This document shows, one piece after another, positions 8,893-49,543 of a DNA stretch of 64,000 bases. The DNA lies in contig NZ_JIAL01000001.1 in NCBI RefSeq assembly GCF_000688455.1, positions 1,085,001 through 1,149,000 on the forward strand. The letters run 5' to 3'. Both the position numbers and the translations under genes were made by a program. Each line of letters opens with the position of its first letter. The stretch's first letter is position 1. The DNA is from Pseudacidobacterium ailaaui (lineage in GTDB: Bacteria > Acidobacteriota > Terriglobia > Terriglobales > Acidobacteriaceae). A model generated the notes under the pieces. It did no database searches and was not told the DNA's origin. It worked only from the letters and a program-made list of their open reading frames with translations.

Positions 8893-9687
8893 TCAAAACT
8901 GGGCCAGTGTTTCCAGAAGTTTGCGGGCCACAGCCTGTCTGCCCTCTTCGTTCAAATGGCCGCCATCATACGTGTACTCCGGGGCCAGAGTGTAGATTTT
9001 TTCCCCATGAGAGATGAAATATACGCGAGACCCGTCGGGAAGAGTGGACTCTGCCTCTGCAAGGTCAAAGAGAGGCTGTTTTCCGGCATATTCCTGTCGA
9101 AGAAGCTGATTGAAGTGATGTCGTTTTTCTGCGATGGCGCGCTCGGTAGGACGACCAAGCAGGTTTTTCAGCCATGCCTTCCATGATGGCTCGACGGTCG
9201 TCAGCGGGATCGTGACATGAATGAGAGTCAATTGCGGATAGCGTGCGGCCAGCATACGCATGTTCTCCCGGTAGTCTGCGAACATTTTGTTTATGTCTGT
9301 CTCAGGACGAATGTCCACAAAGCAGTATTTGTAGAGGGCGATGCCTCCCTGCTCTCCGAATCCTTTCTCGATGATGTCGCGAAAAGCCAGATTTTTCGAC
9401 TCAGGGTCTCCGTTACGACCGATATGCGATTCCATCCATGCCGGCCCCGGCACGCGATGCGGGTCCTCACTCGAAATGATGTGCAGATTGTTTCTATGAG
9501 CCTGCTTTTCAATATCGCGCACACCGTCCAGTATGTTTTCTCCGACCGATTGATGACCGAAGTAAATGCGCAAAGATTCAAGCTTTTTCCATTGTGTCTC
9601 TGAGATCATGACCGGCTGATGTTCCTTTTTTTGGCAGGAAGAGAGTACTGGTAAAACAAACAGGAGCGCTATGGCCAACTTTTGCAT
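8893..9687 (-). CDS. SGNH-hydrolase-like lipoprotein
   Basis: A 264-residue exported protein. The N-terminus is a lipoprotein signal (MQKLAIALLFVLPVLSSC, lipobox LSSC), so it is probably lipid-anchored. The mature part starts with YFGHQSVGENILDGV and ends with a YDGGHLNEEGRQ block, resembling the first and last blocks of SGNH/GDSL hydrolases, where the final DxxH supplies Asp and His. The classic GDS serine motif is replaced by GHQS, so the assignment is tentative. I chose the ATG at 9687 because it overlaps the stop of the acyl-AMP ligase gene (TAATG), implying coupled translation; an ATG at 9708 is possible. It could act on O-acyl groups of an exported product. Confidence 0.6.
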   Translation of the reverse strand: MQKLAIALLFVLPVLSSCQKKEHQPVMISETQWKKLESLRIYFGHQSVGENILDGVRDIEKQAHRNNLHIISSEDPHRVPGPAWMESHIGRNGDPESKNLAFRDIIEKGFGEQGGIALYKYCFVDIRPETDINKMFADYRENMRMLAARYPQLTLIHVTIPLTTVEPSWKAWLKNLLGRPTERAIAEKRHHFNQLLRQEYAGKQPLFDLAEAESTLPDGSRVYFISHGEKIYTLAPEYTYDGGHLNEEGRQAVARKLLETLAQF

Positions 9688-11300
9688 TACGATGCCACAG
9701 TTTTGCATTCCCGCAGCGCGGCCTTCACCACTTTGCCAGATGCATTTTTGGGCAACACATCCAGAAAGACAAATTCTTTGGGAACCTGCATGGATGGAAG
9801 GGTCCTGAGGCAGAATTCACGCAAAGACAGCTCCGTTTGCGATGCCTTGCCCTCACGAAGAACGACATACGCTTTCACTGCTTCTCCTAAGATTTCATCG
9901 GGCACGCCAATCACGGCAGCCTCCAGCAGGTCTCCACACTCAAGAAGTTTCTCTTCGATTGCGCGGCAGCTTACACGGTTCCCACCGCATTTGATGAAGT
10001 CCTTGGCACGGTCCACCACGTAGATATAACCATCGCTATCTACTGTGGCCAGATCACCAGTATGAAGCTGGCCATTCTGGAAGACGGCCGCTGTGTCCTC
10101 AGGCGAGCGCCAATAACCCTGGGCAATGTTCTCGCCTTCAGCAACAATCTCTCCCACTTCTCCTGGGGCGGCCTCCCGTCCTTCACACAGGACCCGAAGC
10201 TTGACACCCGGTATTCCCTTTCCGATCGATCCCGGCTTGCTGTCCAGCATTTGCGGAGGCAAATAAGAAAGCCGTGCTGTCGCTTCGGTCTGCCCGTACA
10301 TAAGAAAAACCTCAACCCCGGGCAATGCGTCGCGCAATTCATGTACGAATGCCGGGGCCAGATGTCCTCCAGCCTGCTGCACATAACGGAGACATGGGAA
10401 GCTATATTTTCTTAACGACGATTTACGCAACAAGATCTGGTAGTGGCTTGGGACCCCAGCAAAGCCCGTACAGCGGGTCTCAAGCATTCTCTCCAGAATC
10501 TTCTCAGGAAACAGAAAGCGCGGATCGATTACGAGGCTTCCTCCTACGCGAAGATGGGTATGCAGAAGAGAGGCCCCAAAGCAATAGTGGAAGGGCAGGA
10601 CCGTCATGATGCGGTCACTGCTGGTAAGCCTTAGATATTCAAGAATAGATTGCGTGTTAGCAATGATGTTTCCATGCGAAATCATCACCCCGCGGGGCCT
10701 GCCTGTGGTACCGCTGGTGAACATCAGAGCTGCAAGGTCCTTGCGGCAGATTTCAGGAAAGTCCAGATCTGAACCGAAGCGGTTTTGCTGCTGCTGGACC
10801 GACCCTTCCTGCCGGTATAAAGGAACATCCGAAATTACCGGCACGCTCAAGGAAAGCTTATTCTTCAAAAACACCCGGGCCGGAGCACAGGCAGCTTTTG
10901 GCGCGGCCACTTCGAGAATGTAGGCCAGTGTTTCCTGATCAACATTCGCTGGCAGCGGCACGCAGACCAGACCGGCCCGCAAAATCCCAAGATAAGCCGC
11001 AACCCAGAAGTACCCGTTTTCTCCAATCAGGAGCACGCGGTCTCCTTTGCGACACCCTAGCTGCAGCAGATGGGAAGCCATGCACTGTGCTCCAAACGCC
11101 AGATCGCCATAGGTCTTCTCAGAATCCAGCAGGAGGAGCGCTGTCTGCTCCGGATCTTTCCCGGCGAGCAGGTAGTCATAGACACTTGAAGAAGCTTCGT
11201 TTTCTGGCGTTTGGGTTTCGTGCGTCCCAGACTGGAGCAACAAGGGTCTTTTCCTTTCTCTTCTTTGGTTTTCGAGGGCCCGTCGGGTCAAATCTCGCAT
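9687..11300 (-). CDS. Acyl-AMP/acyl-CoA ligase (ANL superfamily)
   Basis: A 537-residue adenylate-forming enzyme with the standard motifs: the ATP loop MFTSGTTGRPRG (about 190-200), YGQTEATARL (A5), GDLATVDSDGYIYVVDRAKDFIK (A7-A8 region) and the catalytic Lys loop NASGKVVK near the C-terminus. ANL enzymes activate a carboxylate as acyl-AMP and pass it to CoA or a carrier protein. The gene lies two genes after an acyl carrier protein in an overlapping operon, which favours loading of that carrier. It overlaps the NadE-like gene by 13 bases. This resembles the AMP-forming ligase of exosortase-type EPS loci. Confidence 0.9.
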   Translation of the reverse strand: MRDLTRRALENQRRERKRPLLLQSGTHETQTPENEASSSVYDYLLAGKDPEQTALLLLDSEKTYGDLAFGAQCMASHLLQLGCRKGDRVLLIGENGYFWVAAYLGILRAGLVCVPLPANVDQETLAYILEVAAPKAACAPARVFLKNKLSLSVPVISDVPLYRQEGSVQQQQNRFGSDLDFPEICRKDLAALMFTSGTTGRPRGVMISHGNIIANTQSILEYLRLTSSDRIMTVLPFHYCFGASLLHTHLRVGGSLVIDPRFLFPEKILERMLETRCTGFAGVPSHYQILLRKSSLRKYSFPCLRYVQQAGGHLAPAFVHELRDALPGVEVFLMYGQTEATARLSYLPPQMLDSKPGSIGKGIPGVKLRVLCEGREAAPGEVGEIVAEGENIAQGYWRSPEDTAAVFQNGQLHTGDLATVDSDGYIYVVDRAKDFIKCGGNRVSCRAIEEKLLECGDLLEAAVIGVPDEILGEAVKAYVVLREGKASQTELSLREFCLRTLPSMQVPKEFVFLDVLPKNASGKVVKAALRECKTVAS

Positions 11301-12289
11301 TCATCCACGGGTTCCACCAGCAGAGGTTCCATGCGCAGATATCGCGTGACAGACCGCTTCGCGTCAATCTGTTGATAGGCGCGCTCCACTGCACTGACGG
11401 AAAGTCCTGCACACTGGGCGATTTCCTCGGGCGGCAGTTCATGGTTCCGGCCAAAAAGACAGAGGTCAAACTGACGCAGAGGCATCGAAAAGTAAAACTC
11501 TTCCTGAGTCTGCTCCAGAGAATAGGTGTCGGTTGTTGGCGGCCGCTTCCGTATCTCCTCAGGGACGCCCAGATACTCAGCCAACTGATACACCTGGGAC
11601 TTATATAAATGTGCAATGGGCTTAAAGTCCGCCGCTCCGTCCCCATTCTTCACAAAAAAACCCTGATCGTATTCAAGACGATTCGGCGTGCCAGCCACGG
11701 CAAACTGGTACCGGTCTGCATAGTGATACTCAATCATCTTGCGGGCGCGCTGCTTAAAGTTGGTTGAGGCAAGAATGCCCAGGTAAGCCTCCGCCGTAAG
11801 TCTTCTCTTGTGGACCGTACCATCCGGGGCCTGTACAACGAGAGAAAAGAGGGAATACTTGCTGTCTTCGTGAATGGAAGGCAGGACAATCTTCATTTTG
11901 TATCCCTGCCCATACTCGGGAAAAACCGTGCGGATGGCTTCGTCCCGCCGCTCATAGCAACGGGCGCCTTTTAAAATGGGGCTGATGTCTTCAATAAACG
12001 CGCGCGCACCAAGTGCTTGAGCGACGCTCTGGCCGAGACGCAGACTGTCATTGGAAGAATCAAGCTCGGGCGTAAAGAGAAGGACGGTACGTTCCGGGCC
12101 GAGAGCGCGGGCACACAAAAACGCCACAACACTACTGTCAATTCCGCCAGAAACACCGATCACAGCACCCTTGCGCCTCAGGCGCCTGAAGACCATCTCC
12201 CGAATAGAAGACTCGATACGCTGCACCTCGGCTTCGGCATCCAGTCGCAGCGGATCGCTGAGCAAGGTCATGGACTCTGTTTGCTTCAC
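11288..12289 (-). CDS. NAD synthase-like PP-loop amide ligase
   Basis: A 333-residue NadE-fold protein without the N-terminal nitrilase (glutaminase) domain of long NadE. The PP-loop SGGIDSS is at residues 47-53, and the second signature reads GTPNRLEYDQGFFVKNGDGAADFKPI in pieces (family: GTxNxxE, GDGxxD). NadE uses ATP to convert a carboxylate to an amide via an adenylate. This copy sits between a carrier protein and an acyl-AMP ligase, so it may be a pathway-specific amide-forming enzyme rather than the housekeeping NAD synthase; that is inference. It starts inside the ACP gene end (ATGA-type overlap at 12286-12289). Confidence 0.82.
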   Translation of the reverse strand: MKQTESMTLLSDPLRLDAEAEVQRIESSIREMVFRRLRRKGAVIGVSGGIDSSVVAFLCARALGPERTVLLFTPELDSSNDSLRLGQSVAQALGARAFIEDISPILKGARCYERRDEAIRTVFPEYGQGYKMKIVLPSIHEDSKYSLFSLVVQAPDGTVHKRRLTAEAYLGILASTNFKQRARKMIEYHYADRYQFAVAGTPNRLEYDQGFFVKNGDGAADFKPIAHLYKSQVYQLAEYLGVPEEIRKRPPTTDTYSLEQTQEEFYFSMPLRQFDLCLFGRNHELPPEEIAQCAGLSVSAVERAYQQIDAKRSVTRYLRMEPLLVEPVDECEI

Positions 12290-12591
12290 GGTTTGTCTCC
12301 GTTCACACCTGCAGCTGCAAGTTCCGGCTCTGCAGAAGCCGACTTCAGGGCCAACTTGCGGGAAATATAGGCGACGAGGTTGTCGATTGAGTCCAGGTTT
12401 TCCGGAATGAGCTCGTGGTCCTCAACCTGGATCTGATACGTCTCCTCAATATGGAGAACGAGTTCCAGGACACCGGTGGAATCAATTACGCCCTTGCTGA
12501 TAAAAGAATCTTTGTCTGTCAGCCCGGCGTCGTCACCGAACAGATAATTCGTTACGATGAAATCGCGAAGTTCTCGCTGTAGGTCGTACAT
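12286..12591 (-). CDS. Acyl carrier protein
   Basis: A 101-residue phosphopantetheine-binding protein. The attachment Ser38 lies in GVIDSTGVLELV (family DSLxxVEL; here DST), flanked by acidic helices. A 20-residue Ala/Glu tail extends past the usual 80-residue fold. It presumably carries an acyl or aminoacyl intermediate for the neighbouring ANL, AsnB and NadE-like enzymes. Its start lies 40 bases inside the end of the asnB gene, so translation is likely coupled. Confidence 0.9.
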   Translation of the reverse strand: MYDLQRELRDFIVTNYLFGDDAGLTDKDSFISKGVIDSTGVLELVLHIEETYQIQVEDHELIPENLDSIDNLVAYISRKLALKSASAEPELAAAGVNGDKP

Positions 12592-14537
12592 TCGCTTTCC
12601 TGCTTTCTCTCTATTTTTCGATTCTGGTCAATCAATTGGTCTATCAGGAGTGACGTGGAGAGGATGCCAACCAACGCCATATTGTCTCCGGCATTGGTAG
12701 GCCGCCCGGACCGGAATTTCTCCAACAGCATCCGGACTGGTTCTGGTTTAAAGATGCCTGTATTCTTCAGCGCTTCAGGCGACAAAAGCTCGTCTACATA
12801 GCTGCATGCTTTTCCGGTAACAAAACTCCGGCCATCCGGAGCTCGATAAGGCTGCTTGGGGCGCGACAGAATGGACTCAGGCACGAGCCCTTTGGCCATG
12901 CGCTTCAGCAGATGTTTCTCATCAAGCGCCTTCATCTTCAGCCTGGGCGAAAGACGTGAAGCAAATTCGACGACGCGGTAATCCAAAAACGGATAGCGGC
13001 CCTCAATCGAATGAGCCATGGCCACCCTGTCCCCTTGCGCCGAGAGAATATAGCTGGGGAGAAGATGTGCAGTCTCCAGGTACTGGGCCTGACAAAATCC
13101 GTCCCACCCTGAAAATCCTTCTGGAAGACCATCCAGCATCTCAGACATGCAGTCATAACCGGCAAGCTGAGAGTGCACTTCATCACTGAAGAAGTTTTTG
13201 GCACGCGAGGTAAGCGTCCAGCGCGGCAGATGAGAAAAGAAAGGATCATTTAAGCCAGATGGATCTACGTGAAAAAACCGTTGCAGGTAGGCAGGAGATT
13301 GCTTTTGCACCGATTCTATATAGGGGTAGAGCTTCTTGAGCAGAAGAGGACGCAACCTGGAATTCAAGTCCCTGGCTATGAAACGGCGCACCTTCGCCTC
13401 TTTGAAGATGTCATAGCCTCCCAGTATCTCGTCGGACCCCTCGCCTGTAAGGACAACCTTGAATCCGTTCTCACGCACCAGCCGGGACAACAGATAAAGC
13501 GGAGCAGGTGCCGTGCGCAGGACAGGCTGCTCCATATGCCAAACTACATCGGGGAAAATTTCTCCAATGTCCTGTGCTGAGCAGCGGATGGTTTCATGCC
13601 GGGTCCCAAAGAATCTTGCAGCTTCGCGCTGCCAGAGGCTCTCATCAAGATCCGCATCCTCAAATGCGACAGAGAATGTTTGCAGATTTTCCGGAACAAA
13701 TCTGGTAATGAGCGCGGTCGTGACTGCCGAATCCAAGCCGCCGCTCAGATACGCTCCTACCGGCACATCGGCACGAAGGCGGATCCGTGCCGCGTCCAGA
13801 AGCAGTTCAAAAAGCAAGTCAGAGGCGCGGTCCGCCGCCTGAGGCGAGTCGTCCACATCCCACTCATAATGCAGCTTCCAGTATTGCCAAACTTTAAGAT
13901 CGCCATCTTTCAAAATGGCGGAATGCCCCGGAGGAAGCTGATGAATGCCTTTAAAAATTGTCCGTGAAGGAAGCGGGCACCAGAAAGTGAAGATCTGATC
14001 GAGTGCCTGCAAATCAATCTGCCGAGGGACACGAGGGTAGGTAAGGATGGCCTTTATCTCTGAGGCAAAAAGAAAGGCCCTCCCCACGCTTGCATAATAG
14101 AGTGGCCGAATGCCCAGGCGGTCACGCGACAAAAACAACTGCTGCCGGATATCGTCCCAGATGGCAAAGGCCCATTGACCATTCATCCGCTGAACAAAAT
14201 CCGGGCCATACTCCTGATAAAGATGCAGAATGACTTCTGTGTCTGATTTGGTCTTGAACGAATGCCCCTTCTGCTCCAGCTCCCGTCTAAGTTCGATGTA
14301 GTTAAAGATCTCCCCATTAAAGGTAATCCACAACGGAGCATCGTGAAGCTGCATGGGCTGTTGCCCACCGGCCAGGTCCAGGATGCTCAGGCGCGCGTGC
14401 CCCAGCGACGCAGTACCGTCGATATGCAGTCCCTGCTCATCGGGTCCGCGGTGAACCAGCGTCTGCACCATGCGCTCCAGTGCAAGAGCCCGGAAGGCAG
14501 TGGAATCCTGGCTGATGATCCCGGCAATGCCACACAT
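12552..14537 (-). CDS. asnB: AsnB-type glutamine amidotransferase (asparagine synthase family), first copy
   Basis: A 661-residue protein with Cys2 (MCGIAGI) as glutaminase nucleophile, the class-II glutamine amidotransferase domain to about 200 (FNGEIFNY present), and a synthetase domain with PP-loop SGGLDSA near 265 and GEGSDEILGGY. The family converts a carboxylate to an amide with glutamine and ATP. As lead gene of the ACP/NadE-like/ANL cassette it probably amidates a non-protein substrate, as do the AsnB paralogues of exosortase-type EPS loci, not free aspartate. GAGG lies eight bases before the ATG, and a sigma-54-like site lies 28-42 bases upstream. Confidence 0.88.
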   Translation of the reverse strand: MCGIAGIISQDSTAFRALALERMVQTLVHRGPDEQGLHIDGTASLGHARLSILDLAGGQQPMQLHDAPLWITFNGEIFNYIELRRELEQKGHSFKTKSDTEVILHLYQEYGPDFVQRMNGQWAFAIWDDIRQQLFLSRDRLGIRPLYYASVGRAFLFASEIKAILTYPRVPRQIDLQALDQIFTFWCPLPSRTIFKGIHQLPPGHSAILKDGDLKVWQYWKLHYEWDVDDSPQAADRASDLLFELLLDAARIRLRADVPVGAYLSGGLDSAVTTALITRFVPENLQTFSVAFEDADLDESLWQREAARFFGTRHETIRCSAQDIGEIFPDVVWHMEQPVLRTAPAPLYLLSRLVRENGFKVVLTGEGSDEILGGYDIFKEAKVRRFIARDLNSRLRPLLLKKLYPYIESVQKQSPAYLQRFFHVDPSGLNDPFFSHLPRWTLTSRAKNFFSDEVHSQLAGYDCMSEMLDGLPEGFSGWDGFCQAQYLETAHLLPSYILSAQGDRVAMAHSIEGRYPFLDYRVVEFASRLSPRLKMKALDEKHLLKRMAKGLVPESILSRPKQPYRAPDGRSFVTGKACSYVDELLSPEALKNTGIFKPEPVRMLLEKFRSGRPTNAGDNMALVGILSTSLLIDQLIDQNRKIERKQESECTTYSENFAISS

Positions 14538-14564
14538 AATTCAGCCTCTCACCCGTATCAGCAA

Positions 14565-14579
14565 GCAATTTGGCTTCCA
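14565..14579 (-). promoter_or_regulatory. Candidate sigma-54 promoter of the asnB-ACP operon
   Basis: The minus strand reads TGGAAG-CCAAA-TTGC, with GG and GC exactly 10 bases apart as sigma-54 needs (consensus TGGCAC-N5-TTGC). The predicted start is near 14553, giving a 16-base leader that still holds GAGG. The short leader lowers confidence. Confidence 0.5.
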
Positions 14580-14948: not shown

Positions 14949-15299
14949 ATGCGCGAAACGGATCCCAGCTTGTTTCCTGCAAGAATGCCGATTGAACTTC
15001 GGTTTCCTGACGATGGTCCTGTCCTTGAGGGGGTGATCGCAGAAGTACGGGGGAGAAAACTCTTCTTCTACACGAATTGCCAGATGAAGCAAGGAGATGT
15101 TGTTTTTGTCGTGAGTATTCCTCCTGAACTTACGATGGAGCCTACGATCAACATTGCCGGCTCAGGAAGGATTCTGGACATTGAGACCATTTCGGCCAGA
15201 AATTTCTATGTTGAGATGGAAATTGACGAAGCGGCACCTTTGACGAGGGCCGCTTCTCATTATCCGTTTGCCAATGTACGAACGCCCAGAACGCGATAA
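14949..15299 (+). CDS. Small PilZ-like protein (tentative)
   Basis: A 116-residue soluble protein. The pattern (PARMPIELRF, a small beta-rich body, GSGRILDIETISARNFYVEMEI) resembles a compact PilZ barrel, but the RxxxR and D/NxSxxG c-di-GMP motifs are not convincing, so binding is doubtful. GAGAGAAAG precedes the ATG. The last 13 codons overlap the convergent gene at 15260-15781, which may mean this reading frame has been extended or truncated at its end. It sits between the amide cassette and the sigma-54 regulators. Confidence 0.5.
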   Translation: MRETDPSLFPARMPIELRFPDDGPVLEGVIAEVRGRKLFFYTNCQMKQGDVVFVVSIPPELTMEPTINIAGSGRILDIETISARNFYVEMEIDEAAPLTRAASHYPFANVRTPRTR

Positions 15300-15781
15300 T
15301 CCTTGATCGCGCTTTTCGGAATATAGACAAGCCTGTTGTTGCTGCCAGGATCCGATGGATGCAGAAAGAACCCATCTGCAATTAAATGATGGATGGAGTT
15401 GTGTACTGTGCCCTCCATAATCTCATCATCCTTGAATTGGACTTCCACCCAGATGGCCCCGACCTCTGGACCGTGAATATAGTAGCGCAAATTGTTACGC
15501 TCGCTGTTTCCCGTGAAGGAATTCACAAAAAACATGGCCTTGATGCTAGAAAGGTCTACCTGCACGGGGCTTCTGTCTTCTGAAGAAAAAACAGTGATCG
15601 TTTCCTGAAAATTCTGCCGAGGCCTTTCCAGTACAGATTGCAGGTCTTTCGGATCTTCGACAGGCAGGAAACCTTTTACAATCTGCCCACCTTCTAGATG
15701 GACCACTACCTTTTCTTCCGATTTTGAATTTCTTTTCTCTTTTACATGCCTGGATGCTGTATCTTCTGCCTCTGTTTTCAT
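15260..15781 (-). CDS. Conserved hypothetical protein downstream of the response regulator
   Basis: A 173-residue protein with a charged N-terminus (1-25, Lys/Glu-rich) followed by two beta-rich repeats: VVVHLEGGQIVKGFLPVE with VDLSSIKAMFFVNSF, and WVEVQFKDDEIMEGTVHN with VYIPKSAIKDYRVLG. The duplicated 'xVxFxDGxxxxG ... xxxSSIKxxF' pattern suggests two small barrels. I recognise this style from acidobacterial proteins but cannot give a function. It starts two bases after the response regulator stop, so they form one operon and it may help in that signal pathway. Confidence 0.7.
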   Translation of the reverse strand: MKTEAEDTASRHVKEKRNSKSEEKVVVHLEGGQIVKGFLPVEDPKDLQSVLERPRQNFQETITVFSSEDRSPVQVDLSSIKAMFFVNSFTGNSERNNLRYYIHGPEVGAIWVEVQFKDDEIMEGTVHNSIHHLIADGFFLHPSDPGSNNRLVYIPKSAIKDYRVLGVRTLANG

Positions 15782-15783
15782 CT

Positions 15784-17229
15784 TTATGCCCTTATGGATT
15801 GAGGTTCAGAGAGACCATAGTCCCGGATCTTATACAAGAGCGCTTTGTAACTGATCTTCAATTCTGCTGCCGCCTGGCGTCTGCTCCAGTTGTTGCGATC
15901 GAGGGCCGCCACGATGGCTTCGGCTTCTGCATCGGCCTTCACACGGCGTACGAGCTTTTTCAGGCTCATCGCAGTTGTATCAGCACTCTGATTTGCACTA
16001 GGGAAAGACCTGCGATCTCCGCGCAATTCGGCCATCATCATCTGCTCATCGCCCAAGACAAGAAGGCGCTTAACAAAGTTTTCCAATTCCCGCAGGTTTC
16101 CAGGCCAGGGATAACTCTTACAGGCACGCAGCATTTCATCGGAAAGCGTCAAAGACTTTTGTCCATACTTGTCCGACAGCTTGCGTACAAAGTGGCGAAT
16201 CAGGATGGGAATTTCTTCTCTCCGCTCGCGCAAGGGTGGCAAGTGAAGAGAAAAACCGTTCAACCGATAGAAAAGATCTTCCCGGAAGCGGCGTTCCGCA
16301 ATGGCCACCTTCATATCAATATTTGTGGCCGCTACCACTCGCACGTTGACTTTGATTGTGGTGCGCCCGCCTAACCGGGAAAAGCTGCCGTCCTGCAATA
16401 CATGCAAAAGCTTGGCCTGAAGCGCAGGAGGCATTTCACCAATTTCATCAAGAAAAATAGTGCCGTTGTTGCAAAGTTCAAATTTTCCTGGCTTCGCTTT
16501 TACAGCGCCCGTAAATGCACCCTGCTCATAGCCGAACAACTCGCTTTCCAGAAGGTCTGCTGGCATTGCGGCGCAGTTGACCTTGAGAAAGGTTCGATGG
16601 GCCGCGGGTGACATCTTATGAATAAACTGGGCCAAAACTTCTTTGCCCGTACCGCTCTCTCCCAAAATGAGCACTGGCAGATCCACGCGAGCAATGGTTG
16701 TGCATTGAGAAAACACCGTCCTCATGCGCTCGCTGGCAAATACAAAAGAATTACCGTCAGCCAGGGGGACCTCGCGCGCCTGGTTTTCCAGAGAGCAATC
16801 CACGATTTGAACACAGCGACGGAGCGTTTCGACCACATCGTTCTTGAACAGTGGCTTCAGAATGACGTCGAGTGCCCCGCGTCGCATGGCATCAACAATT
16901 AGGCGCGGGTCATAAGAGCACGACATAATGACACAGGGAACGCTCGGATAGATCTCGCGCACCATTGATAAAAAAGCAAGCCCATCTTGCCCTTGCAAGT
17001 GCGCGTCAATAAGAATCGCGTCCGGTCGAGGACCGCTCTTGAGTTTTGCCAATGCTTCCTCGCTTCGGGAAGCTCCGGTGACCCGGCAGGCTTCGCCGGC
17101 AAGAAGTGAGCGTAGATGTTCCAATACTCCTGGCTGATCGACCAGAAATATCTGGGCGCCATTGAGTCCAGAGTTAAGGCCAGAATGAAAACCTGGATTG
17201 GCAGGCGGCAGAGCTTGTACGGTTGCCAT
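15784..17229 (-). CDS. NtrC-family sigma-54 response regulator (PrsR-like)
   Basis: A 481-residue protein with a receiver domain (about 20-145), AAA+ domain (about 165-400: GESGTGKE Walker A, GAFTGA loop present in YEQGAFTGAV, FLDEIGEM Walker B, arginine finger FREDLFYRLNG) and a Fis-type HTH (NNWSRRQAAAELKISYKALLYKIRDYG). The receiver keeps the phospho-acceptor Asp (AILIDAHLQG) and Lys (LKPL), but the usual acidic pair reads DQ (FLVDQPG). I chose 17229 because GGAG lies eight bases upstream and the domain starts soon after; the frame runs open to 17382. It is probably the direct activator of the sigma-54 promoters nearby. No histidine kinase is in the window. Confidence 0.9.
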   Translation of the reverse strand: MATVQALPPANPGFHSGLNSGLNGAQIFLVDQPGVLEHLRSLLAGEACRVTGASRSEEALAKLKSGPRPDAILIDAHLQGQDGLAFLSMVREIYPSVPCVIMSCSYDPRLIVDAMRRGALDVILKPLFKNDVVETLRRCVQIVDCSLENQAREVPLADGNSFVFASERMRTVFSQCTTIARVDLPVLILGESGTGKEVLAQFIHKMSPAAHRTFLKVNCAAMPADLLESELFGYEQGAFTGAVKAKPGKFELCNNGTIFLDEIGEMPPALQAKLLHVLQDGSFSRLGGRTTIKVNVRVVAATNIDMKVAIAERRFREDLFYRLNGFSLHLPPLRERREEIPILIRHFVRKLSDKYGQKSLTLSDEMLRACKSYPWPGNLRELENFVKRLLVLGDEQMMMAELRGDRRSFPSANQSADTTAMSLKKLVRRVKADAEAEAIVAALDRNNWSRRQAAAELKISYKALLYKIRDYGLSEPQSIRA

Positions 17230-17684
17230 GTTCGTTTCTCCAAGGCGATACGGATTTCTTCCATGAAATACTGCGTGTCTGGTCCATGGTGGCAGACACC
17301 AGTTATATCCCTGCTCGTGTTCAGGAACACCCTTAATGGAAGCGCACCATGAATTGCTTGCCAAATAGTGTTTCCCGATCAAACATCGTTACGGCAACTA
17401 CGGGGAGGGATTTTTGCTGCCAGACGCACTCTCATCGGTGCGCTCCAGCGCCACTTTCATACTTTAGGGGAAAGGTACAACAGGAACGACTATACAAAAG
17501 CAAAATTTTGCATGTCAAATGAAAAAGTATTTACACAAACGATTTTTGAATAAGTGTTGCAGAACCGAACATATGACTCAAGATATAGTACTTTCTTCTT
17601 ATTTGTATCAGCACTTATTACTCATCGTAGCTGCTGCAAGCCGCAAGATTTGGCCAGAGAAATGCACAACTATTCTGAAACACT
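17230..17684. other. Divergent regulatory region between the two sigma-54-type regulators
   Basis: A 455-base stretch without a believable gene. It holds a 12-base perfect palindrome GCAAAATTTTGC (17500-17511) in AT-rich DNA, a possible operator. At 17651-17666 TGGCCA-GAGAA-ATGCA has sigma-54 spacing, but the predicted start would lie only eight bases before the next ATG. No strong sigma-70 promoter stands out. Confidence 0.4.
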
Positions 17685-18728
17685 ATGCACCTGGAACTCG
17701 ATACGATCTCCTTACTCTCGGCCGAATGGAAGCTACCGCCACCAGACGTCATTTTTGGCGAGAGTGCCGTGATGAAAGCACTGCGGAGCAAGCTGGTGCG
17801 CATTGCTGAAACAAATATCCCCGTACTGATTCGTGGAGAGAGCGGAACTGGCAAAGAAGTAATCGCGCGTCTTTTACATATGATTTCTCCAGGGAAGCCA
17901 GGGGCCTTTGTAAAAATAAACTGCCCAGCAATTTCCGCCACACTGCTCGAAAGCGACTTCCCAGGCAATGTGCGTGGCACCTGGCCCGGTGTTCTTTCCA
18001 GTTCATCTGAAAACTCAGAAGATTCTCCACCCGGGACTTTGTTTCTCGATGAAATCGGAGATCTGGATACTGATTTACAAGCCAGATTGCTTGAACTACT
18101 CCAGGATGGGAGTGTTTGCCGTACCGGAGAAAGGGCGGAAAAGCAGTTCCCTACCCGTATTATCTCCGCATCGAACCACAACCTGGAAGAAGATGTTGTC
18201 GCCGGAACATTTCGCGAGGACCTTCTGTACCGGTTGGATGGCGTCACAATCTCACTACCACCTCTACGCGAGCGTAAAGAAGATATTCCGCGGATGATCG
18301 ATTTTCTTATGGCGCATCATGGCGAGGCACTCAATTGTGCAGCCCGACCTCTGTCATCTTCTGCAATGCAGGCAATGATGGACTACCCCTGGTATGGAAA
18401 CATTCGCGAGCTAGAAAATGTGGTCCGCAGGTACATCATCTTCGGACAGGAAGATGCCATTCTGGATGATCTGACCCGGGGAAATGCTCCGTTCTTTGCC
18501 GCAGCTCCATCTTTTGATGCTGACTTTTCGCTAAAGCGGATTACCCGGCAGACCGTACAGGAATTAGAGCGAAAACTTATCCTTCAAGTATTGGCAGCTA
18601 ATAACTGGAACCGCAAAAAAGCTGCACGCATACTCAAAATCAGTTATCGATCACTCATGTATAAAATCCGAGAAATGAACGTTCCGCCTTTGCGTGCAAG
18701 AGATACACAGCAGGCAGATCCTGCATAA
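17685..18728 (+). CDS. Sigma-54 activator-like AAA+ protein lacking both receiver domain and GAFTGA
   Basis: A 347-residue protein with an AAA+ domain from about residue 20 to 260 and a Fis-type HTH (NNWNRKKAARILKISYRSLMYKIREMN). Walker A (GESGTGKE), Walker B (FLDEIGDL) and the arginine finger (FREDLLYRLDG) are intact. The sigma-54 contact loop, normally GAFTGA, reads GTWPGV (98-103, bases 17976-17993) in a region of otherwise normal length. It has no sensor domain. It may bind DNA and hydrolyse ATP yet fail to contact sigma-54, for instance as a modulator that co-assembles with the neighbouring response regulator; that is speculation. The start is the first ATG after an in-frame stop; no good Shine-Dalgarno. 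Confidence 0.85.
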   Translation: MHLELDTISLLSAEWKLPPPDVIFGESAVMKALRSKLVRIAETNIPVLIRGESGTGKEVIARLLHMISPGKPGAFVKINCPAISATLLESDFPGNVRGTWPGVLSSSSENSEDSPPGTLFLDEIGDLDTDLQARLLELLQDGSVCRTGERAEKQFPTRIISASNHNLEEDVVAGTFREDLLYRLDGVTISLPPLRERKEDIPRMIDFLMAHHGEALNCAARPLSSSAMQAMMDYPWYGNIRELENVVRRYIIFGQEDAILDDLTRGNAPFFAAAPSFDADFSLKRITRQTVQELERKLILQVLAANNWNRKKAARILKISYRSLMYKIREMNVPPLRARDTQQADPA

Positions 18729-18760: not shown

Positions 18761-21700
18761 CTATCGCACAATCAATGTGACAGGCACACTTTTCGTCAGA
18801 CCATCCAGCGTCGCATGGATCTGGACTGTGTAAGTGCCGGCCTGCAACCCTGCTGGCGCTGTAAAGCTTCCGGGCTGAATACCACAGGCCAGGGATGCTA
18901 ACAATATCCCAGAGACCAGGCAAAATAACATGGTGCGCATAAGATAGCGGCGCCGTTTCAACCCTGTGAGAAATGGGAGAAAGACTGCCAGACTGAATGC
19001 GGTCGTCTCAAAAGATCTTGCAGTCGATTGAGGACCAATACTCACAACCGCATTAAAGGTTTGCCCATTCGCGGAGGCCGCCGCACTCCCTAGCTGCTGC
19101 ACAGTACAAATTGTATTTTTCGGAAGGCCAGAGCAAGTAAAACTCGGCTTATCATTCGATGCGCCTACAAACGTAAATTGCAATTGATAATTTGCAGCCT
19201 GACCGCTGGTCAAGATTTGCGAAGATTGGCCAATGACGGCAAGCAGAAAATCAACCCCTGTGCCTTGAAGCGGTACGACCAAAGATGAGGCTAGATTAGT
19301 GCCGGATACGGTCAGCATTCCGGTACGGCTTCCTGTTTGTGTTGGAGTAAAAGTAATACCCAGGATGCAGGAGCTGCTCACTGCCAGTGAGCTTCCTGCG
19401 GGGCATGTATTGCTGGCAACCGCAAAATCGCCACTTATCGTAAAACTCAGCGCCGTAACTGGGGCGCCTCCGTTGTTGACCAGGGTAATCTGTTGGGGGC
19501 TACTGGTTGTATTAATTCCTTGTCCGCCAAAACCTGAGAGAGTTGAACTCAGCGAAAGGAGTGGCGGAGAAAGCCCTGTGCCGGAAAGCCTGACTTCCTG
19601 GGCACCAAAGACTGTACTTACCTGAAGCACTCCCTCTTCTACACCACTATGTGTCGGAACAAAAGTTACCGACACCGGACAGGACGTATGGCCTGCAAGT
19701 TGTGGAGCGCAACCATTGTCCATGGTGAAATCTCCGGAGAGGCTAACGGTCACCTGCTCCAGTGACGCATCACCATTATTAGTCAACGTCAATACCTGGG
19801 ACGTGCTCTTATTTCCAACGATTACAGGAGAGGGAAAGGTCAGCATGGATGCCGAGAGATCTGCCGTTGCCTGCGTCAAACCATTTCCAGAAAGCGCTAC
19901 CAGATGGCTACCTTCCGCATCCTGGATGCTTAATGTTCCTGTCCGCGTTCCGGAGAGTTTCGGAGCAAAAGCAACTGCGACCGTACAACTGGCGCTCGGC
20001 GCTACGGACGTTCCGCAGGTGTTCCCGCTAATTGTGAAATCACCGCTGACAGTGGACGATTGCAATGTTGCACTGCTATTTCCTACATTCGCGACGGTGA
20101 CAGTCTGTGTAGGTGTTGTGTTGCCGATAACTGTAGCGGGGAAGTTGACTGCGCTTGGTTGCAATTGAAGTTTTGCTTGCGTCTGAGATTGTTGCGTGGT
20201 GGATGCTTCTATCCAGCAACCCAGAATTGCGGCTCCCGTGTCAGGGCCGATTGTACTGGTCAGCGTCGTTGAGGCCTGCGTTCCGGATGGGACCTCACCC
20301 CACATCGTCACCAGGTTTTTACCTGGATAATTCGCACTTTGTGGATTATGGAAGTTTGTAACATCGAGCAGCGTGAAGTTATTTGTAACCGAGAAGTCTG
20401 ATATCGGAGGCGTGGGCACTTGATTTACACCAGCGGCACCAATGCAGACGTCTTTGGTCCCTGTAGTGGCGGAAGTGGGACCAAGTGTCCAGGACGTGTT
20501 GTAGTAAAGGGGATCGGCAGCATAGGTATCTGTTGCGGTTACCGGACCGATATCATAAACATAGAGATTCCATGCACCCCAGAATTGTGGCGGCACCAAT
20601 GTAATGATGTCTCCCGCATTCAGGGGATTTTTGAGCACCGAGGACCAGGCCCAGATTGTGTCTGCTGTGCCTTCGTCCTGCTGTGTTGTCAGGTAAGTAT
20701 AGGTATTGCCTTCTGTGTCTGACACAGCATTGGTGGCAATGGTTGTTGTGCTGGGGAACGAGACGAAGACCACCACGCCGTGTCCGGCAGGTACAGTTAC
20801 TCCGCTGGGCAGAGTACAGGTGGCCGGCGAAGCTGCTCCACCGTTGACCTCAGCCTGGGTAAGACAAATGCGATAGACGCGAGCATTGCCACCGCCGCCT
20901 CCAATGGTTCCTCCGCCCTGGGTTGTGATTGGGCCTACGCTTGTGGCTGGCTCGGTAGCAGCGTACTGCCTCACGAGTACATTTTCAAATTCGGCGGTGG
21001 AACCAGTTTCGCCATACAGCGCGATTCCGCCTGAAGGTAATGCATTGGAACTATCTGTTACGGAAACAACCGGGACATTATTCGCAAGGATGTCGATCAC
21101 GTTTCCGTGTACTTTTGCGGTGAGACGGTTCCACGTGTTTGCAGTGATCGTTCCCGCATTGCCGCCACCCAGGGTCGCTGTAGCATTTCCCCCTGAATTG
21201 TTTACCCAGCTATAGGCATACAGATTTGTACCGCCATTCAGGTCATCATAGAGATTGATTGAGTACAGATTCGAGCCATTGGTGGCGCGAACACCGAGTC
21301 CCCAGACGCGCCCTGCGGTCTGCTTGCCAAAAACGTCCGCAACATAATTCGTTCCGGAATACGTCGAGTAAAGAATTTGCCGGTTCGTAGTAATTCCCTG
21401 GGCTACGGAGGACATTACGCCATTTTCATTTGTATCGGAAACAACGGACCATGTTCCGCCGGAAGCAGTCCAGTTGCTCGAATTGATATTGCCTTCACTG
21501 AAATCATCAAAGAAGAGAAAGGTTGCAGGGCCATTAGATGCCGTGGTTGCCGAGGGATTGCCATAGTACATGAAAATGGTTGTCCCTGTAGTGGGGATTG
21601 AAGGCACATTGACCCAGAGGACCGCACTCGTACTATTCCAGCTCTCAATCCAGAACGGGATTGCCGTCAGCCCGTCCGATGCCGTAAAGCGGATGTCCGC

Positions 21701-24700
21701 ACCGTTCGCTGCTGCCTTCGTAAAGTCAAAGTTCGAACCAAGCTGCACCTTTACCTGGAAGTTGGAGAGCGTCGATCCGTTCGAGTTCGTGATTGTCACG
21801 GCACTGCGATATTGCCAGGAAGGCGAGAACCAGTTCCCTGAGGCCGGAGCAATCGTAAGGCTGGCCGTACTTGACGACCCCAGACTGGAAGCTATGATAT
21901 TGGCTGTCGTATTGGCAGAGACCGTTGTTGTCGTTACCGTAAAGGTTGCGCTTGTGGCCCCGGCTGCAATCGCCACAGTTGCAGGAACAGATGCAGCACT
22001 GTTGTCACTCGACAGATTCACTACTGTACCACCGCTGGGTGCTGCCCCATTGAGCGTCACCGTTCCCTGCGTGGTATTTCCACCAAAAATATTATTCTGG
22101 CTCAAGGAAAGCGACGCCAGCACGGGCAGCACTGTAATAGATGCTGTCTGGGTACTGCCCATGTAAGAAGCTGTGATCGTAGCAAGAACGCTCACAGCCG
22201 TGGGTCCGCCGCTGATTGTAAAGTTAGCTGAAGACGCACCTGCCGGGACCGTAACCGCAGCAGGCACACTTGCTGCGGCGTTATTACTGCTTAGAGAAAC
22301 GGTTGCTCCTGTTGATGGAGCCGGACTGCCAAGAGTTATCGTCCCTTGGGTTGTTGCGCCGGCAAGGATCGACGATGGAGCGATGACAAACGATGACAGC
22401 GGAGGCTGGATGGTCAGGGTCGAACTGACGCTTGCTCCCGAATAACTGGCAGTTATCTGTGCCGCAGTGGTTGTGTTCACCGCGCTTGTGTTAATCGGAA
22501 AGACACCTGAGGTTTGTCCGGCTGGAATCATGATGCTTGCCGGAACTGACGCAACGGAATTGCCGCTCGAAAGAGTTATCGTCGCGCCGCCTGAGGGCGC
22601 AGGTGCGTAGAGCGTAACAGTCCCCTGGGAAGGACTTCCTCCCTGCACGGTAGAGGGCGAAATCGACACGGATGAGAGATATGGATTGATGGAGAGTGTT
22701 GCCGTCTGACCGGAGCTTCCATAGGTTGCGGAAATGGTTGCAGAAGTTGTCGTGGCAACAGACGTAGTCGTTATCTGAAACGATGCAGAGGTTGCGCCAG
22801 CAGGCACCGTTACGCTGGCAGGCACCGATGCAGAAGAAGAAGTACTGGATAGAGAAACAACTGCTCCGCCTGCAGGCGCGGCAATCGCCAGAGTGACTGT
22901 TCCCTGCGAGGTTGCACCACCCAGCACAGAAGATGGAGAAACGGTCAGAGAGGAAATTCCCGCCTGAGTAGCTTGCCCAACAGACGCAGTTGGATCCACG
23001 ACCGCATATTTTCTTACCAGCAGATTGTCCCACTCCGCATTCGAACCAGCTTCGGCATAAAGGGCCACGCCACCAGTGGCCAGAGTAGAACTTGAACCCT
23101 GCGCACTTTGGCCGTTTGTGTCTACTTCAATTGTTCCCTGATGGACCTTGGTAACTATCTTGTACCAGGTATTCGGCTGGATATTGCCTGCCTGTAGCTG
23201 CAGCACCTGCATGTTGGCAATATCGCTGGTGTTGTTAAACCATCCATACGAATAGAGGTTGTAGCCGCCATTCATATCTCCATAGAGATTGACGGAATAC
23301 AAGTTGGACCAGGCCGTCGCATGGACCCCCACTCCCCATACATCTCCCAGAATTTCCCTGCCGCTGGCCTGCACGACATAATCACCTGCGGAATAATTCG
23401 ATGTGACCAGGACCTGCCTGGATGAGGTTTGCGCCTGCGCTACATGTCCCTGTGTTCCATCCGGCTGCGTGGCAGGAACAATTGCCCAGACGCCACCCCC
23501 GCTGACCTTCCATTTGGAAGGGTTAAAGGTTCCGAAGGCCTGCGGTCCGGCAGAAAGACTTGCAGTGCGCAATTGCAGTGTCCAAACGCCATTTGTCTGC
23601 TGGCAGTTGTAGTTATAAAGTGTGCTTCCGAAAGCCTGCTGGAACATGCAGGCCCCACCATTGGCCAGGACGGGATTTCCGGGAACGAGTGTAAATCCGG
23701 ACTTCGGGGAGCTACTTGAATAAACATTCGTGACCCACTGCTGCGTGGGATCTGTCCCCTCAGTGGAAAGATAATATTTTCCGTTGTAGTAGAACATGCT
23801 GGGAGCAGCCATCTTCGCCTTTGAGCTCAGCACAGTCGAGGTTGCAGCCGTGTCCAGCGCTGTAATCGAAGACGCGCTCCTTACATAAATGTTGAAGTTG
23901 GATGAATCGTCGCCATGATAGTAGTACAAATACCAAAGATTGTCGTTCGGATTAAAAAACAGATTCGGATTCTGGTTTCTTAAACCAGATTGCGCCTTCA
24001 CAATGGGCTTCACATCGGTGAAATGGAGTCCATCGGTGCTGGTAGCAAGCTCGATATAACTGCTGCTGGTGCAGAAGTTCTTTTCATACAGCATGTAGTA
24101 GACACCGTTGACCAGCTGCACGGTCGGCCAGCGGCCGCCGCTGATAAGCGGGTTACCGGTGTACTTTGTCCAGTGGGTAAGGTCATTACTGTAAGCAATA
24201 CCAATTCCGTCGCATTGGTAAGTGCCATAGTAACCCGAATAAGTGTAGCCATTTTGGTTTGCCTGTACCACGCTCAGGGTGTGCGGAGGATTGGCCTCCC
24301 AGGTTTGGTCCTGCACCATAACAGTAGTGGGACTGCTCTGGGCAAAATATCCCGTCTGCGTGCCATAAGGAGTTTCAAAATCATCAAAGAACTCAAACAC
24401 ATTGTTGCCGTTAGAGGCCGTGGCTGCATTAGGGTTCCCGTAATAGATAAAAAGAGTGGTACCTGTGGTTGGAAGATTCGGCACCTTGACCCAGATGCTG
24501 GCCTTCGAGGAAGCCGCATTCCAACTCTCAATCCAGAATGGAAGCTGCGTCACGCCATCGCTTGCAGTCACTCGAAGATCAGAGCCGTCGCTTTTCGCCG
24601 CTGAAAAATTCGTCTCGCTGCCCAGGTTGATGTTGACCTGAAATTGTGAAAGTACGTTCCCGCTGGAGTTATTGATGGTGACTGGGTTACGGTACAACCA

Positions 24701-24790
24701 GGCAGGATCCATCCAGGCTGCGTTCTGGGCGTGCGCCGGGCGCAGAACGACGATACAAAGTGCGATTGCGAATATCAGGTTTCTCTTCAT
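18761..24790 (-). CDS. Giant secreted modular protein (DUF2341, GH43-like, Ig-like and choice-of-anchor-D repeats)
   Basis: A 2009-residue protein. Signal peptide 1-22; DUF2341 about 24-145; a five-bladed-propeller glycosidase-like region (GH43/32 style) about 165-405; a LamG-like domain 415-603; four Ig-like repeats of about 92 residues (605-983; each with xxGTVTLxxPAPSGG and SVPAxVxVPAGATS); a second DUF2341 plus LamG-like pair 984-1290; a Gly-rich linker and cell-surface domain to 1540; three choice-of-anchor-D/HYDIN-type domains (1545-1843). The C-terminus has a hydrophobic helix, KRRR, a second helix ending LASLACG, then a last beta domain. Probably a surface adhesin or polysaccharide-binding protein of the EPS matrix. 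The catalytic state of the propeller is not clear. A sigma-54-like promoter lies 54-68 bases upstream. Confidence 0.85.
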   Translation of the reverse strand: MKRNLIFAIALCIVVLRPAHAQNAAWMDPAWLYRNPVTINNSSGNVLSQFQVNINLGSETNFSAAKSDGSDLRVTASDGVTQLPFWIESWNAASSKASIWVKVPNLPTTGTTLFIYYGNPNAATASNGNNVFEFFDDFETPYGTQTGYFAQSSPTTVMVQDQTWEANPPHTLSVVQANQNGYTYSGYYGTYQCDGIGIAYSNDLTHWTKYTGNPLISGGRWPTVQLVNGVYYMLYEKNFCTSSSYIELATSTDGLHFTDVKPIVKAQSGLRNQNPNLFFNPNDNLWYLYYYHGDDSSNFNIYVRSASSITALDTAATSTVLSSKAKMAAPSMFYYNGKYYLSTEGTDPTQQWVTNVYSSSSPKSGFTLVPGNPVLANGGACMFQQAFGSTLYNYNCQQTNGVWTLQLRTASLSAGPQAFGTFNPSKWKVSGGGVWAIVPATQPDGTQGHVAQAQTSSRQVLVTSNYSAGDYVVQASGREILGDVWGVGVHATAWSNLYSVNLYGDMNGGYNLYSYGWFNNTSDIANMQVLQLQAGNIQPNTWYKIVTKVHQGTIEVDTNGQSAQGSSSTLATGGVALYAEAGSNAEWDNLLVRKYAVVDPTASVGQATQAGISSLTVSPSSVLGGATSQGTVTLAIAAPAGGAVVSLSSTSSSASVPASVTVPAGATSASFQITTTSVATTTSATISATYGSSGQTATLSINPYLSSVSISPSTVQGGSPSQGTVTLYAPAPSGGATITLSSGNSVASVPASIMIPAGQTSGVFPINTSAVNTTTAAQITASYSGASVSSTLTIQPPLSSFVIAPSSILAGATTQGTITLGSPAPSTGATVSLSSNNAAASVPAAVTVPAGASSANFTISGGPTAVSVLATITASYMGSTQTASITVLPVLASLSLSQNNIFGGNTTQGTVTLNGAAPSGGTVVNLSSDNSAASVPATVAIAAGATSATFTVTTTTVSANTTANIIASSLGSSSTASLTIAPASGNWFSPSWQYRSAVTITNSNGSTLSNFQVKVQLGSNFDFTKAAANGADIRFTASDGLTAIPFWIESWNSTSAVLWVNVPSIPTTGTTIFMYYGNPSATTASNGPATFLFFDDFSEGNINSSNWTASGGTWSVVSDTNENGVMSSVAQGITTNRQILYSTYSGTNYVADVFGKQTAGRVWGLGVRATNGSNLYSINLYDDLNGGTNLYAYSWVNNSGGNATATLGGGNAGTITANTWNRLTAKVHGNVIDILANNVPVVSVTDSSNALPSGGIALYGETGSTAEFENVLVRQYAATEPATSVGPITTQGGGTIGGGGGNARVYRICLTQAEVNGGAASPATCTLPSGVTVPAGHGVVVFVSFPSTTTIATNAVSDTEGNTYTYLTTQQDEGTADTIWAWSSVLKNPLNAGDIITLVPPQFWGAWNLYVYDIGPVTATDTYAADPLYYNTSWTLGPTSATTGTKDVCIGAAGVNQVPTPPISDFSVTNNFTLLDVTNFHNPQSANYPGKNLVTMWGEVPSGTQASTTLTSTIGPDTGAAILGCWIEASTTQQSQTQAKLQLQPSAVNFPATVIGNTTPTQTVTVANVGNSSATLQSSTVSGDFTISGNTCGTSVAPSASCTVAVAFAPKLSGTRTGTLSIQDAEGSHLVALSGNGLTQATADLSASMLTFPSPVIVGNKSTSQVLTLTNNGDASLEQVTVSLSGDFTMDNGCAPQLAGHTSCPVSVTFVPTHSGVEEGVLQVSTVFGAQEVRLSGTGLSPPLLSLSSTLSGFGGQGINTTSSPQQITLVNNGGAPVTALSFTISGDFAVASNTCPAGSSLAVSSSCILGITFTPTQTGSRTGMLTVSGTNLASSLVVPLQGTGVDFLLAVIGQSSQILTSGQAANYQLQFTFVGASNDKPSFTCSGLPKNTICTVQQLGSAAASANGQTFNAVVSIGPQSTARSFETTAFSLAVFLPFLTGLKRRRYLMRTMLFCLVSGILLASLACGIQPGSFTAPAGLQAGTYTVQIHATLDGLTKSVPVTLIVR
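21840..22970 (-). repeat. Four tandem Ig-like repeats coded within the giant protein
   Basis: Four copies of about 92 codons each (about residues 605-983). Every copy has an opening SxSxxxxxGGxxxQGTVTL segment, a central SVPAxVxVPAGATSxxF segment and a closing TASxxGxxxTAxLTI segment. The copies differ enough to exclude a very recent duplication. Confidence 0.8.
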
Positions 24791-28867: not shown

Positions 28868-29072
28868 ACGCAGTGCTGTCTTGCATTCTCCAGACCAAAC
28901 CCGTTTTCAAGGCAAAAAGAGGCTTCGCCCAGATACCTTGTTCCAACCAGCATCGCAGAGGACGCCTTGCTGTCATTGAAAGGAAGGGGTTTGCCAAAGA
29001 TCTGTGAAAGAAGTGACTTTACCTAAAAGGAAAAGATTTTCTCCCGGAAATCGCTGGCGCTTGTTCACTTCA

Positions 29073-29090
29073 TGCGCAAGTCTTTGCACA
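29073..29090. promoter_or_regulatory. Candidate enhancer (activator) site, copy 2
   Basis: TGCGCAAGTCTTTGCACA, inverted repeat TGYGCAA-N4-TTGCRCA. Its centre is 86.5 bases upstream of the predicted sigma-54 start at 29168, the same distance as copy 1 from its own promoter. Confidence 0.58.
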
Positions 29091-29141
29091 GGTGTAGTGC
29101 AGGAAGCAGATACCTTGCGGGAGCCATGCCGGATGATGCTT

Positions 29142-29157
29142 TGGCATCAGGATTGCT
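29142..29157 (+). promoter_or_regulatory. Candidate sigma-54 promoter of the uronate-sugar operon
   Basis: TGGCAT-CAGGA-TTGCT: every key position matches the consensus except T for C at the sixth base. The predicted start near 29168 gives a 34-base leader to the ATG at 29202, which has GGAGG four bases upstream. Confidence 0.7.
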
Positions 29158-29201
29158 GTGTTACATGCAGAAATTTTTGATGACATCCCCCCGGAGGCAG
29201 G

Positions 29202-49474: not shown

Positions 49475-49528
49475 GATGACCTCCCCCGACAACCGTACAG
49501 ACACGCGGGCCCGCACACCATAGACCTT

Positions 49529-49543
49529 GCAAAAGGCGTGCCA
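49529..49543 (-). promoter_or_regulatory. Perfect sigma-54 promoter of the EPS export operon
   Basis: The minus strand reads TGGCACGCCTTTTGC, identical to TGGCACG-N4-TTGC. The predicted start near 49517 gives a 43-base leader to the ATG at 49474. Upstream a 6-base inverted repeat CGCACA-N10-TGTGCG (49655-49676) may be an activator site. Confidence 0.85.

Follow-up and report, generated by a model that had tools for sequence, protein, structure and literature searches.

A stretch of 64,000 nt from the soil bacterium Pseudacidobacterium ailaaui (contig NZ_JIAL01000001.1, positions 1,085,001 to 1,149,000, here called the window) carries a compact cassette of five genes, which encode an AsnB-type glutamine amidotransferase, an acyl carrier protein (ACP), a NadE-like protein, an ANL (acyl-AMP) ligase and a lipoprotein (Table 1). 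Computation shows that a NadE-family protein distinct from the canonical NAD synthetase of the same genomes has been conserved in operons together with an ANL ligase and, in most cases, an ACP and AsnB, both in Acidobacteriota and on alphaproteobacterial plasmids. The gene set is thus real and widely kept. The reading presented here, to which a probability of about 0.4 is assigned, is that the cassette is a carrier-protein-dependent amide-forming module that employs a repurposed relative of NAD synthetase and passes an acyl group to an acceptor.

The five genes lie on the same strand and overlap, as an initial annotation of the window had described. By open reading frame (ORF) coordinates the overlaps are 40, 4, 13 and 22 bases from the promoter side onward. 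The first three agree with the initial annotation; the last, between the ANL and lipoprotein genes, had been given as 3 bases, and becomes 1 base if the lipoprotein starts at Met8. The family names assigned to AsnB, ACP, NadE-like protein and ANL are in agreement with Pfam and NCBIfam. AsnB matches PF00733 (307 bits), ANL matches PF00501 (250 bits), the NadE-like protein matches PF02540 (152.3 bits) and the NF002048 (PRK00876) “NAD(+) synthase” subfamily (491.5 bits, cut-off 313), and ACP scores 20.7 bits with PF00550, 0.1 bit short of the cut-off of 20.8. All 33 cassette ACPs with scores above 90 bits in the cassette-built model have Ser38 of the DS motif. Also invariant, in 33/33 aligned cassette AsnB sequences, are Cys2, Arg49, Asn74, Gly75, Glu76 and the SGGxDS motif. 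A search of the window ACP as a protein against its own genome has its own place as the sole match.

A canonical NAD synthetase match is present elsewhere in the P. ailaaui genome (C1:2356208-2356957, within a 658-aa open frame), a check that the initial annotation had called for; the NadE-like gene is therefore not the sole NAD synthase candidate. NF002048 is patchily distributed: it is above cut-off in 7 of 100 relatives, P. ailaaui counted, and in 39 of 396 genomes sampled from the phylum. The union of these two samples gives 43 NF002048-holding genomes, and all 43 have a separate canonical match elsewhere (NF010588, E≤1e-40), with 14 of the matches above the family cut-off and the others lower-scoring. 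Thus the cassette NadE is a paralog with another job, or a redundant one, and the possibility that the cell has no other NAD synthetase was rejected. NAD synthesis is implied by the NF002048 name, but the separate canonical matches and the operon context point elsewhere.

Regions of up to 20 kb around NF002048 genes were searched with hidden Markov models (HMMs) of the cassette proteins. The ANL, ACP, AsnB, NadE and lipoprotein HMMs were made from cassette loci, so that match strength is partly by construction; gene positions are independent of it. Among 45 acidobacterial loci, which include three pairs from one genome and many species of one genus, ANL is found within 8 kb of the NF002048 gene at 39, ACP at 32, AsnB at 28 and the lipoprotein at 7; some short ACPs may be missed, and several contigs are short. 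The same 8 kb search around 20 canonical nadE control loci of the same family and class, seven of them from genomes that also hold a cassette, found no ANL, ACP, AsnB or lipoprotein gene. The linkage of NadE, ANL, ACP and AsnB is beyond chance.

Same-strand runs with gaps of less than 400 bases were compared at 51 loci, six of them on plasmids. Of the 53 runs with NadE, 48 have at least one partner and 25 all four genes, the latter in six orders. Nine runs consist of ACP-ANL-NadE without AsnB, and four of NadE-AsnB. Thus the partner most consistently present is ANL; AsnB is common, not obligatory. No gene fusions between cassette members were seen among these runs. Membership is kept while gene order shuffles, which argues for a shared function. 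The neighborhood search for AsnB-ACP-NadE-ANL that had been proposed initially therefore finds the set conserved, and not a fixed order. The initial annotation would have been at odds with a gene that was the only NAD synthase and a gene order that was not kept in relatives; instead, a separate canonical match is present and the set recurs in relatives, with its order shuffled. When named genomes were scanned with only the window protein as query, three loci were found, and one of these, L044, represents the same contig as L042 (loci are designated by such numbers). Three loci, L096, L099 and L100, have two NF002048-type genes each, and one copy of each groups with L111, L113 and L114 in a divergent, well supported part of the NadE tree.

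The cassette also occurs outside the phylum. A tblastn search (E≤1e-20) of 72,556 plasmid records yielded 117 with a relative of the NadE-like protein (Sinorhizobium 76, Azospirillum 12, Ensifer 9, Shinella 8, Mesorhizobium 8 and others 4), and annotated records mostly label the match nadE, NAD(+) synthase. In Sinorhizobium meliloti RCAM1115 there is a stand-alone AsnB-ACP-ANL-NadE operon between sugar transporter genes and minCDE, with aldo/keto reductases likewise flanking it. The four genes have the same order in Nitratireductor, Mesorhizobium and Shinella, and the order ACP-ANL-AsnB-NadE is found in Azospirillum ramasamyi. In S. meliloti 1021 the match lies at pSymB 1450582-1451586. The locus tags SMb20481-20484 do not denote this operon, as tags 20484 and 20485 belong to a sugar transporter. 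In Azospirillum brasilense, according to a published study, NadE1 and NadE2 are glutamine-dependent, and a third NadE isoform without a glutaminase domain was detected in the proteome and was not fished by the PII protein GlnZ (PMC7646526). We infer that the third isoform is the relative of the cassette NadE on A. brasilense replicons. A literature search, with most subscription papers outside its reach, found no description of an AsnB-ACP-NadE-ANL set.

Alignment of 54 NF002048-type proteins with 24 other NadE proteins from related genomes shows that the PP-loop motif SGGxDS, Thr201, Glu206, Arg181, Arg183 and Lys230 are invariant in the NF002048 type. There is a family-specific insert at approximately residues 107-170, in which Tyr112, Gly157 and Arg163 are found in 54/54 sequences and Lys133 in 52/54; these four columns are gaps in all 24 other NadE proteins. 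The ATP-pyrophosphatase chemistry should, to judge from these residues, be intact. Retention of the catalytic residues, together with an insert that has invariant positions of its own, suggests that the NadE-like protein is probably an active amide-forming enzyme with a substrate other than that of the canonical enzyme. An AlphaFold model (four sequences, mean predicted local distance difference test score, pLDDT, 74.4) is most similar to NAD synthetases (Z 19.9 over 231 residues, root-mean-square deviation, rmsd, 3.3 to 2e18).

The ANL ligase has a history that differs from that of its partners. The window proteins are 56-59% (AsnB), 61-63% (NadE) and 52-58% (ACP) identical to those of the AsnB-ACP-ANL-NadE loci L037, L038, L039 and L046, and the ANL proteins are 34-36% identical. 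In the NadE tree these four loci form a group with the window, L040, L041 and L042 (Shimodaira-Hasegawa-like approximate likelihood ratio test, SH-aLRT, 89), and the same eight group likewise in the AsnB tree, with the addition of L087 (SH-aLRT 99). The ANL tree places the window and its three companions L040, L041 and L042 in the other deep half (support 100). An ANL tree constrained to keep the eight loci together is rejected by the approximately unbiased (AU) test (p-AU 4.5e-5), for a group that was picked after the NadE and ANL trees had been viewed. These are quick trees, with the near-duplicates L093, L097, L103, L115 and L116 and short rows left out. The seven loci with the lipoprotein are all in the ANL half of the window (7/20 rows vs 0/18, Fisher p 0.0087, uncorrected for relatedness). 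In the lineage of the window ANL was exchanged, and AsnB and NadE were retained; the acid could then change while the amide chemistry stays. A MatB-like substrate for the ligase was considered and not relied on.

The lipoprotein is an optional member of the cassette, present at 7 of 45 loci. It has no Pfam or NCBIfam match at E≤0.001. The lipobox cysteine and a DGGH block are conserved in 7/7 sequences. A structure model (three sequences, pLDDT 74.8) displays an SGNH fold, closest to PatB and acyl hydrolases; in Foldseek the best match is PatB (7tjb; E 5.9e-6, TM-score 0.47 by query, rmsd 6.8), one of 28 matches at E≤0.001. The first motif is GHxS in six sequences and GHRA in the seventh (L041), and a GDS with the catalytic Ser is absent. 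Thus the SGNH likeness that had been proposed is upheld by the model; with GDS missing, any esterase role is putative, and membership in the cassette is optional.

With these components a pathway can be outlined. ANL would adenylate a carboxylic acid and load it onto Ser38 of ACP. The NadE-type enzyme would adenylate a carboxylate, either that of the carrier-bound acyl group or that of its partner, and couple it to ammonia or an amine. AsnB would make a second amide with glutamine as the nitrogen source, and the NadE-type enzyme, itself without a glutaminase, might also draw ammonia from that of AsnB. Once amidated, the acyl group would move to an acceptor, for which an amino group of a surface sugar is the probable candidate, with a tandem-GNAT protein carrying out the acyl transfer at some of the related loci. 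In the lineage of the window the acid would have changed upon replacement of ANL, and the exported SGNH-fold lipoprotein would act later, at the cell surface. A broader proposal is offered tentatively, at somewhat less than even odds: NF002048 enzymes may be NAD synthetases recruited as carrier-protein-dependent amide synthetases, which amidate or amine-couple the ACP-held acyl group or the acceptor. The pathway in question would be widespread, undescribed and able to change its acid by exchange of ANL.

The surface-sugar step is suggested by neighboring genes. Locus L039 is a long same-strand array in which a PIG-L deacetylase adjoins NadE, and it includes two glycosyltransferases, a YdjC deacetylase and a protein whose GNAT score of 19.1 bits falls short of the cut-off of 25. 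At L040 there are an epimerase, a sulfotransferase and a carbamoyltransferase, with a protein upstream that is weakly similar to the GNAT set, and at L081 a sulfotransferase sits between AsnB and NadE. The A. ramasamyi cassette lies between glycosyltransferases plus a polysaccharide deacetylase and a GNAT acyltransferase, and that of Shinella zoogloeoides adjoins an exopolysaccharide transport protein and glycosyltransferases. In addition, a family of about 370 aa recurs at or near the cassette at L037, L075, L077, L078, L079 and L087. Pfam and NCBIfam scans of two members (L037 and L077) gave no match; a profile comparison relates the family to the GNAT pair of L076 and L039 (hhalign probability 95.9). 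The neighbors at L039, L040 and L081 and this GNAT-related family point to acyl transfer on sugars.

Several observations weigh against the proposed module. No ANL was found within 8 kb at six of the 45 loci (L081, L084, L109, which is a 4.7-kb contig, L111, L113 and L114), AsnB was not seen at 17 and ACP not at 13; at L113 and L114, both in the divergent NadE group, none of the cassette partners was found. Residues taken to contact nicotinic acid adenine dinucleotide (NaAD) are largely kept in NF002048, so that NaAD or a similar nucleotide is a possible substrate. The P. ailaaui genome gave no match to the 370-aa family, in a search without a positive control, and no polysaccharide gene lies within 9 kb on either side of the S. 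meliloti operon. A Pfam scan of 115 neighbors from 43 loci, with the window excluded (up to three nearest per locus, 200-700 aa, within 5 kb), has 3 exosortase, 3 phosphoglucomutase, 2 GT1 and 2 polysaccharide synthesis matches among the 25 commonest families. Compared with 107 neighbors from 20 canonical nadE loci (up to six per locus), there is no clear enrichment of glycan families among the 25 commonest; this comparison is weak and is not used as proof. Thus the link to exopolysaccharide (EPS) that was proposed in the initial annotation holds for the flanks of some loci, and is not borne out by S. meliloti or by the neighbor count.

These same observations bear on the possibility that the product of the cassette is not a glycan substituent but a small amidated acid in free form, osmolyte-like or signal-like, and that proximity to polysaccharide genes is merely regional. 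The isolation of the S. meliloti four-gene operon amid sugar transporter genes, aldo/keto reductases and minCDE, the wide differences in cassette neighbors from locus to locus, and the failure to find a member of the recurrent acyltransferase family in the genome of the window would fit such a product. It is set against sugar deacetylase, glycosyltransferase, sulfotransferase and EPS neighbors at several loci, and against the lipoprotein partner, which implies surface work at the seven loci that have it. On balance this explanation is considered somewhat less likely than the proposed module.

The retained residues could also mean that the NadE-type enzyme amidates a nucleotide-like carboxylate that resembles NaAD, for example a nucleoside diphosphate (NDP)-uronic acid or a CoA- or pantetheine-linked acid, and that ANL and ACP form a parallel decoration of the same sugar. 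This would be in keeping with the catalytic and presumed NaAD-side residues, which are largely kept, with the fold of the model, and with amino-sugar genes in the EPS locus of the window. However no sugar-nucleotide family among the neighbor clusters recurs as widely as ANL and ACP, and we consider the proposal improbable. Still less credence is given to a second, conditionally used NAD synthetase that lies in the operon by chance: the NCBI name and the intact catalytic core allow it, but each of the 43 genomes has its separate canonical match, none of the operon partners is known to be connected with NAD, they persist across six gene orders, and the insert with its invariant residues is specific to the family. 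Least probable is a Dlt-like system, in which an amino acid, loaded onto ACP by ANL, would be handed to a surface polymer by a membrane acyltransferase, with the SGNH lipoprotein in place of DltD; an ANL, a carrier and an SGNH-fold exported protein do share one operon, but the genome has no MBOAT match (PF03062, E≤0.001; positive in 3/14 control genomes) and the DltC model scores 21.5 bits against a cut-off of 68.

The proposed amide-forming module resembles, and differs from, several known systems. In the Dlt system DltA is an ANL enzyme, DltC a carrier, DltB an MBOAT protein and DltD an SGNH protein; the cassette has counterparts of three of these, but it differs in its two amide-forming enzymes as well as in the MBOAT result. 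In the N-acetylglutaminylglutamine amide (NAGGN) operon an AsnB-type enzyme (TIGR03104) makes a terminal amide. The cassette AsnB is likewise of the AsnB type, but scores 393 bits with TIGR03104, below the cut-off of 570.1, and it is accompanied by ACP, ANL and NadE-type partners. The cassette ANL and AsnB share superfamilies with the TIGR03098 ligase and TIGR03108 amidotransferase of exosortase A (XrtA/PEP-CTERM) EPS sets, to which the cassette adds a NadE-type partner. The scores are far below the cut-offs (ANL 329.8 bits vs 592.35; AsnB 445 bits vs 816.9), and exosortase PF09721 has no match in the P. ailaaui genome at E≤0.001, in a search that was positive in 1/14 control genomes. An exosortase system was rejected on that result, and the comparison with exosortase-type EPS loci in the initial annotation is not supported. 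Decoration of amino sugars in Nod factors employs a deacetylase, a carrier-fed acyltransferase, a sulfotransferase and a carbamoyltransferase. By analogy, the kinds of enzymes that flank the cassette at L039, L040 and A. ramasamyi may be compared with these, nod genes not having been searched for; the annotated flanks of the cassette in the window show no such set.

Upstream of AsnB there is a sigma-54-like site, TGGAAGCCAAATTGCT, which in the initial annotation tied the cassette to an EPS regulon. A 19-base stretch over TGGAAGCCAAATTGCT is identical in the sister locus L042, where most of the surrounding region aligns poorly, and the exact 17-base form is found besides the window only in L042 and L044 (the same contig) among the loci searched. 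In a mismatch scan upstream of AsnB at eight loci, the AsnB start was located in two, the window and L042. A DUF6982 gene and two sigma-54 activator genes next to the cassette are kept as a block (window 15260-18728 and L042:13436-16942). By count the site is weak: the window has 44 sites with up to two mismatches vs 45.75 expected, which is at chance, and 5 vs 3.61 with up to one. The identity of the site in L042 and the kept activators make sigma-54 control of the cassette plausible, in this genus only. Thus the site is present and conserved in the sister genome as a candidate, and its number in the window is at chance level. The sole perfect sigma-54 consensus match in the window is at 49528-49543, 11 bases from the start of the export-protein gene (48869-49516).

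The EPS locus of the window is at some distance from the cassette. It has a second AsnB-type amidotransferase (35706-37943), 35% identical to the cassette AsnB and closest to TIGR03108 (530.3 bits, cut-off 816.9). Genes for a UDP-N-acetylglucosamine (UDP-GlcNAc) 2-epimerase, a Gfo/Idh oxidoreductase, a hexapeptide transferase and a DegT aminotransferase are close together at 27695-32004 and look like an amino-sugar pathway for EPS. Between the activators and the EPS locus a 2009-aa open frame (18761-24790) has repeated stretches and a signal-like start; its product is perhaps a secreted multi-domain protein.

Table 1. Features of the cassette and its surroundings. Positions are in the window unless a locus is given.
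Feature	Position	Strand	Remarks
AsnB-type glutamine amidotransferase	12552-14537	minus	first gene; 661 aa; class II glutaminase Cys2 and PP-loop synthetase residues intact
ACP	12286-12591	minus	101 aa; carrier Ser38 in DSxG motif
NadE-like protein (NF002048/PRK00876)	11288-12289	minus	333 aa; GTG start; without glutaminase domain
ANL (acyl-AMP) ligase	9687-11300	minus	537 aa; subtype differs from nearest sister cassettes
SGNH-fold lipoprotein (model)	8893-9708	minus	271 aa; lipobox Cys25; GHxS, not GDS; DGGH block conserved
Sigma-54-like site TGGAAGCCAAATTGCT	14564-14579	minus	2 mismatches; ends 26 bases before AsnB ATG
DUF6982 protein	15260-15781	minus	kept beside cassette in sister genome
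NtrC-type sigma-54 activator	15784-17382	minus	kept beside cassette in sister genome
Second sigma-54 activator (AAA+, Fis-type helix-turn-helix)	17685-18728	plus	divergent; kept beside cassette in sister genome
EPS locus	24958-49516		~10-35 kb from cassette; XrtA/PEP-CTERM-style ATPase and export protein, both below cut-offs
~370-aa family members	L037:14277-15395; L078:10018-11133; L087:5761-7014; L077:4077-5189; L079:4138-5247		

The nadE or NAD(+) synthase label on the NF002048 plasmid genes is probably misleading, and the gene probably belongs to a biosynthetic pathway that is not described in the literature searched. If the proposed amide-forming module is correct, it represents a new use for the NadE fold. 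The Sinorhizobium copy is a compact four-gene operon in a tractable species, which makes the question directly testable. The recurrence of the same gene team in distant bacteria, among them plant-root symbionts, suggests an undescribed amide-making pathway that is sometimes found near sugar-coat genes.

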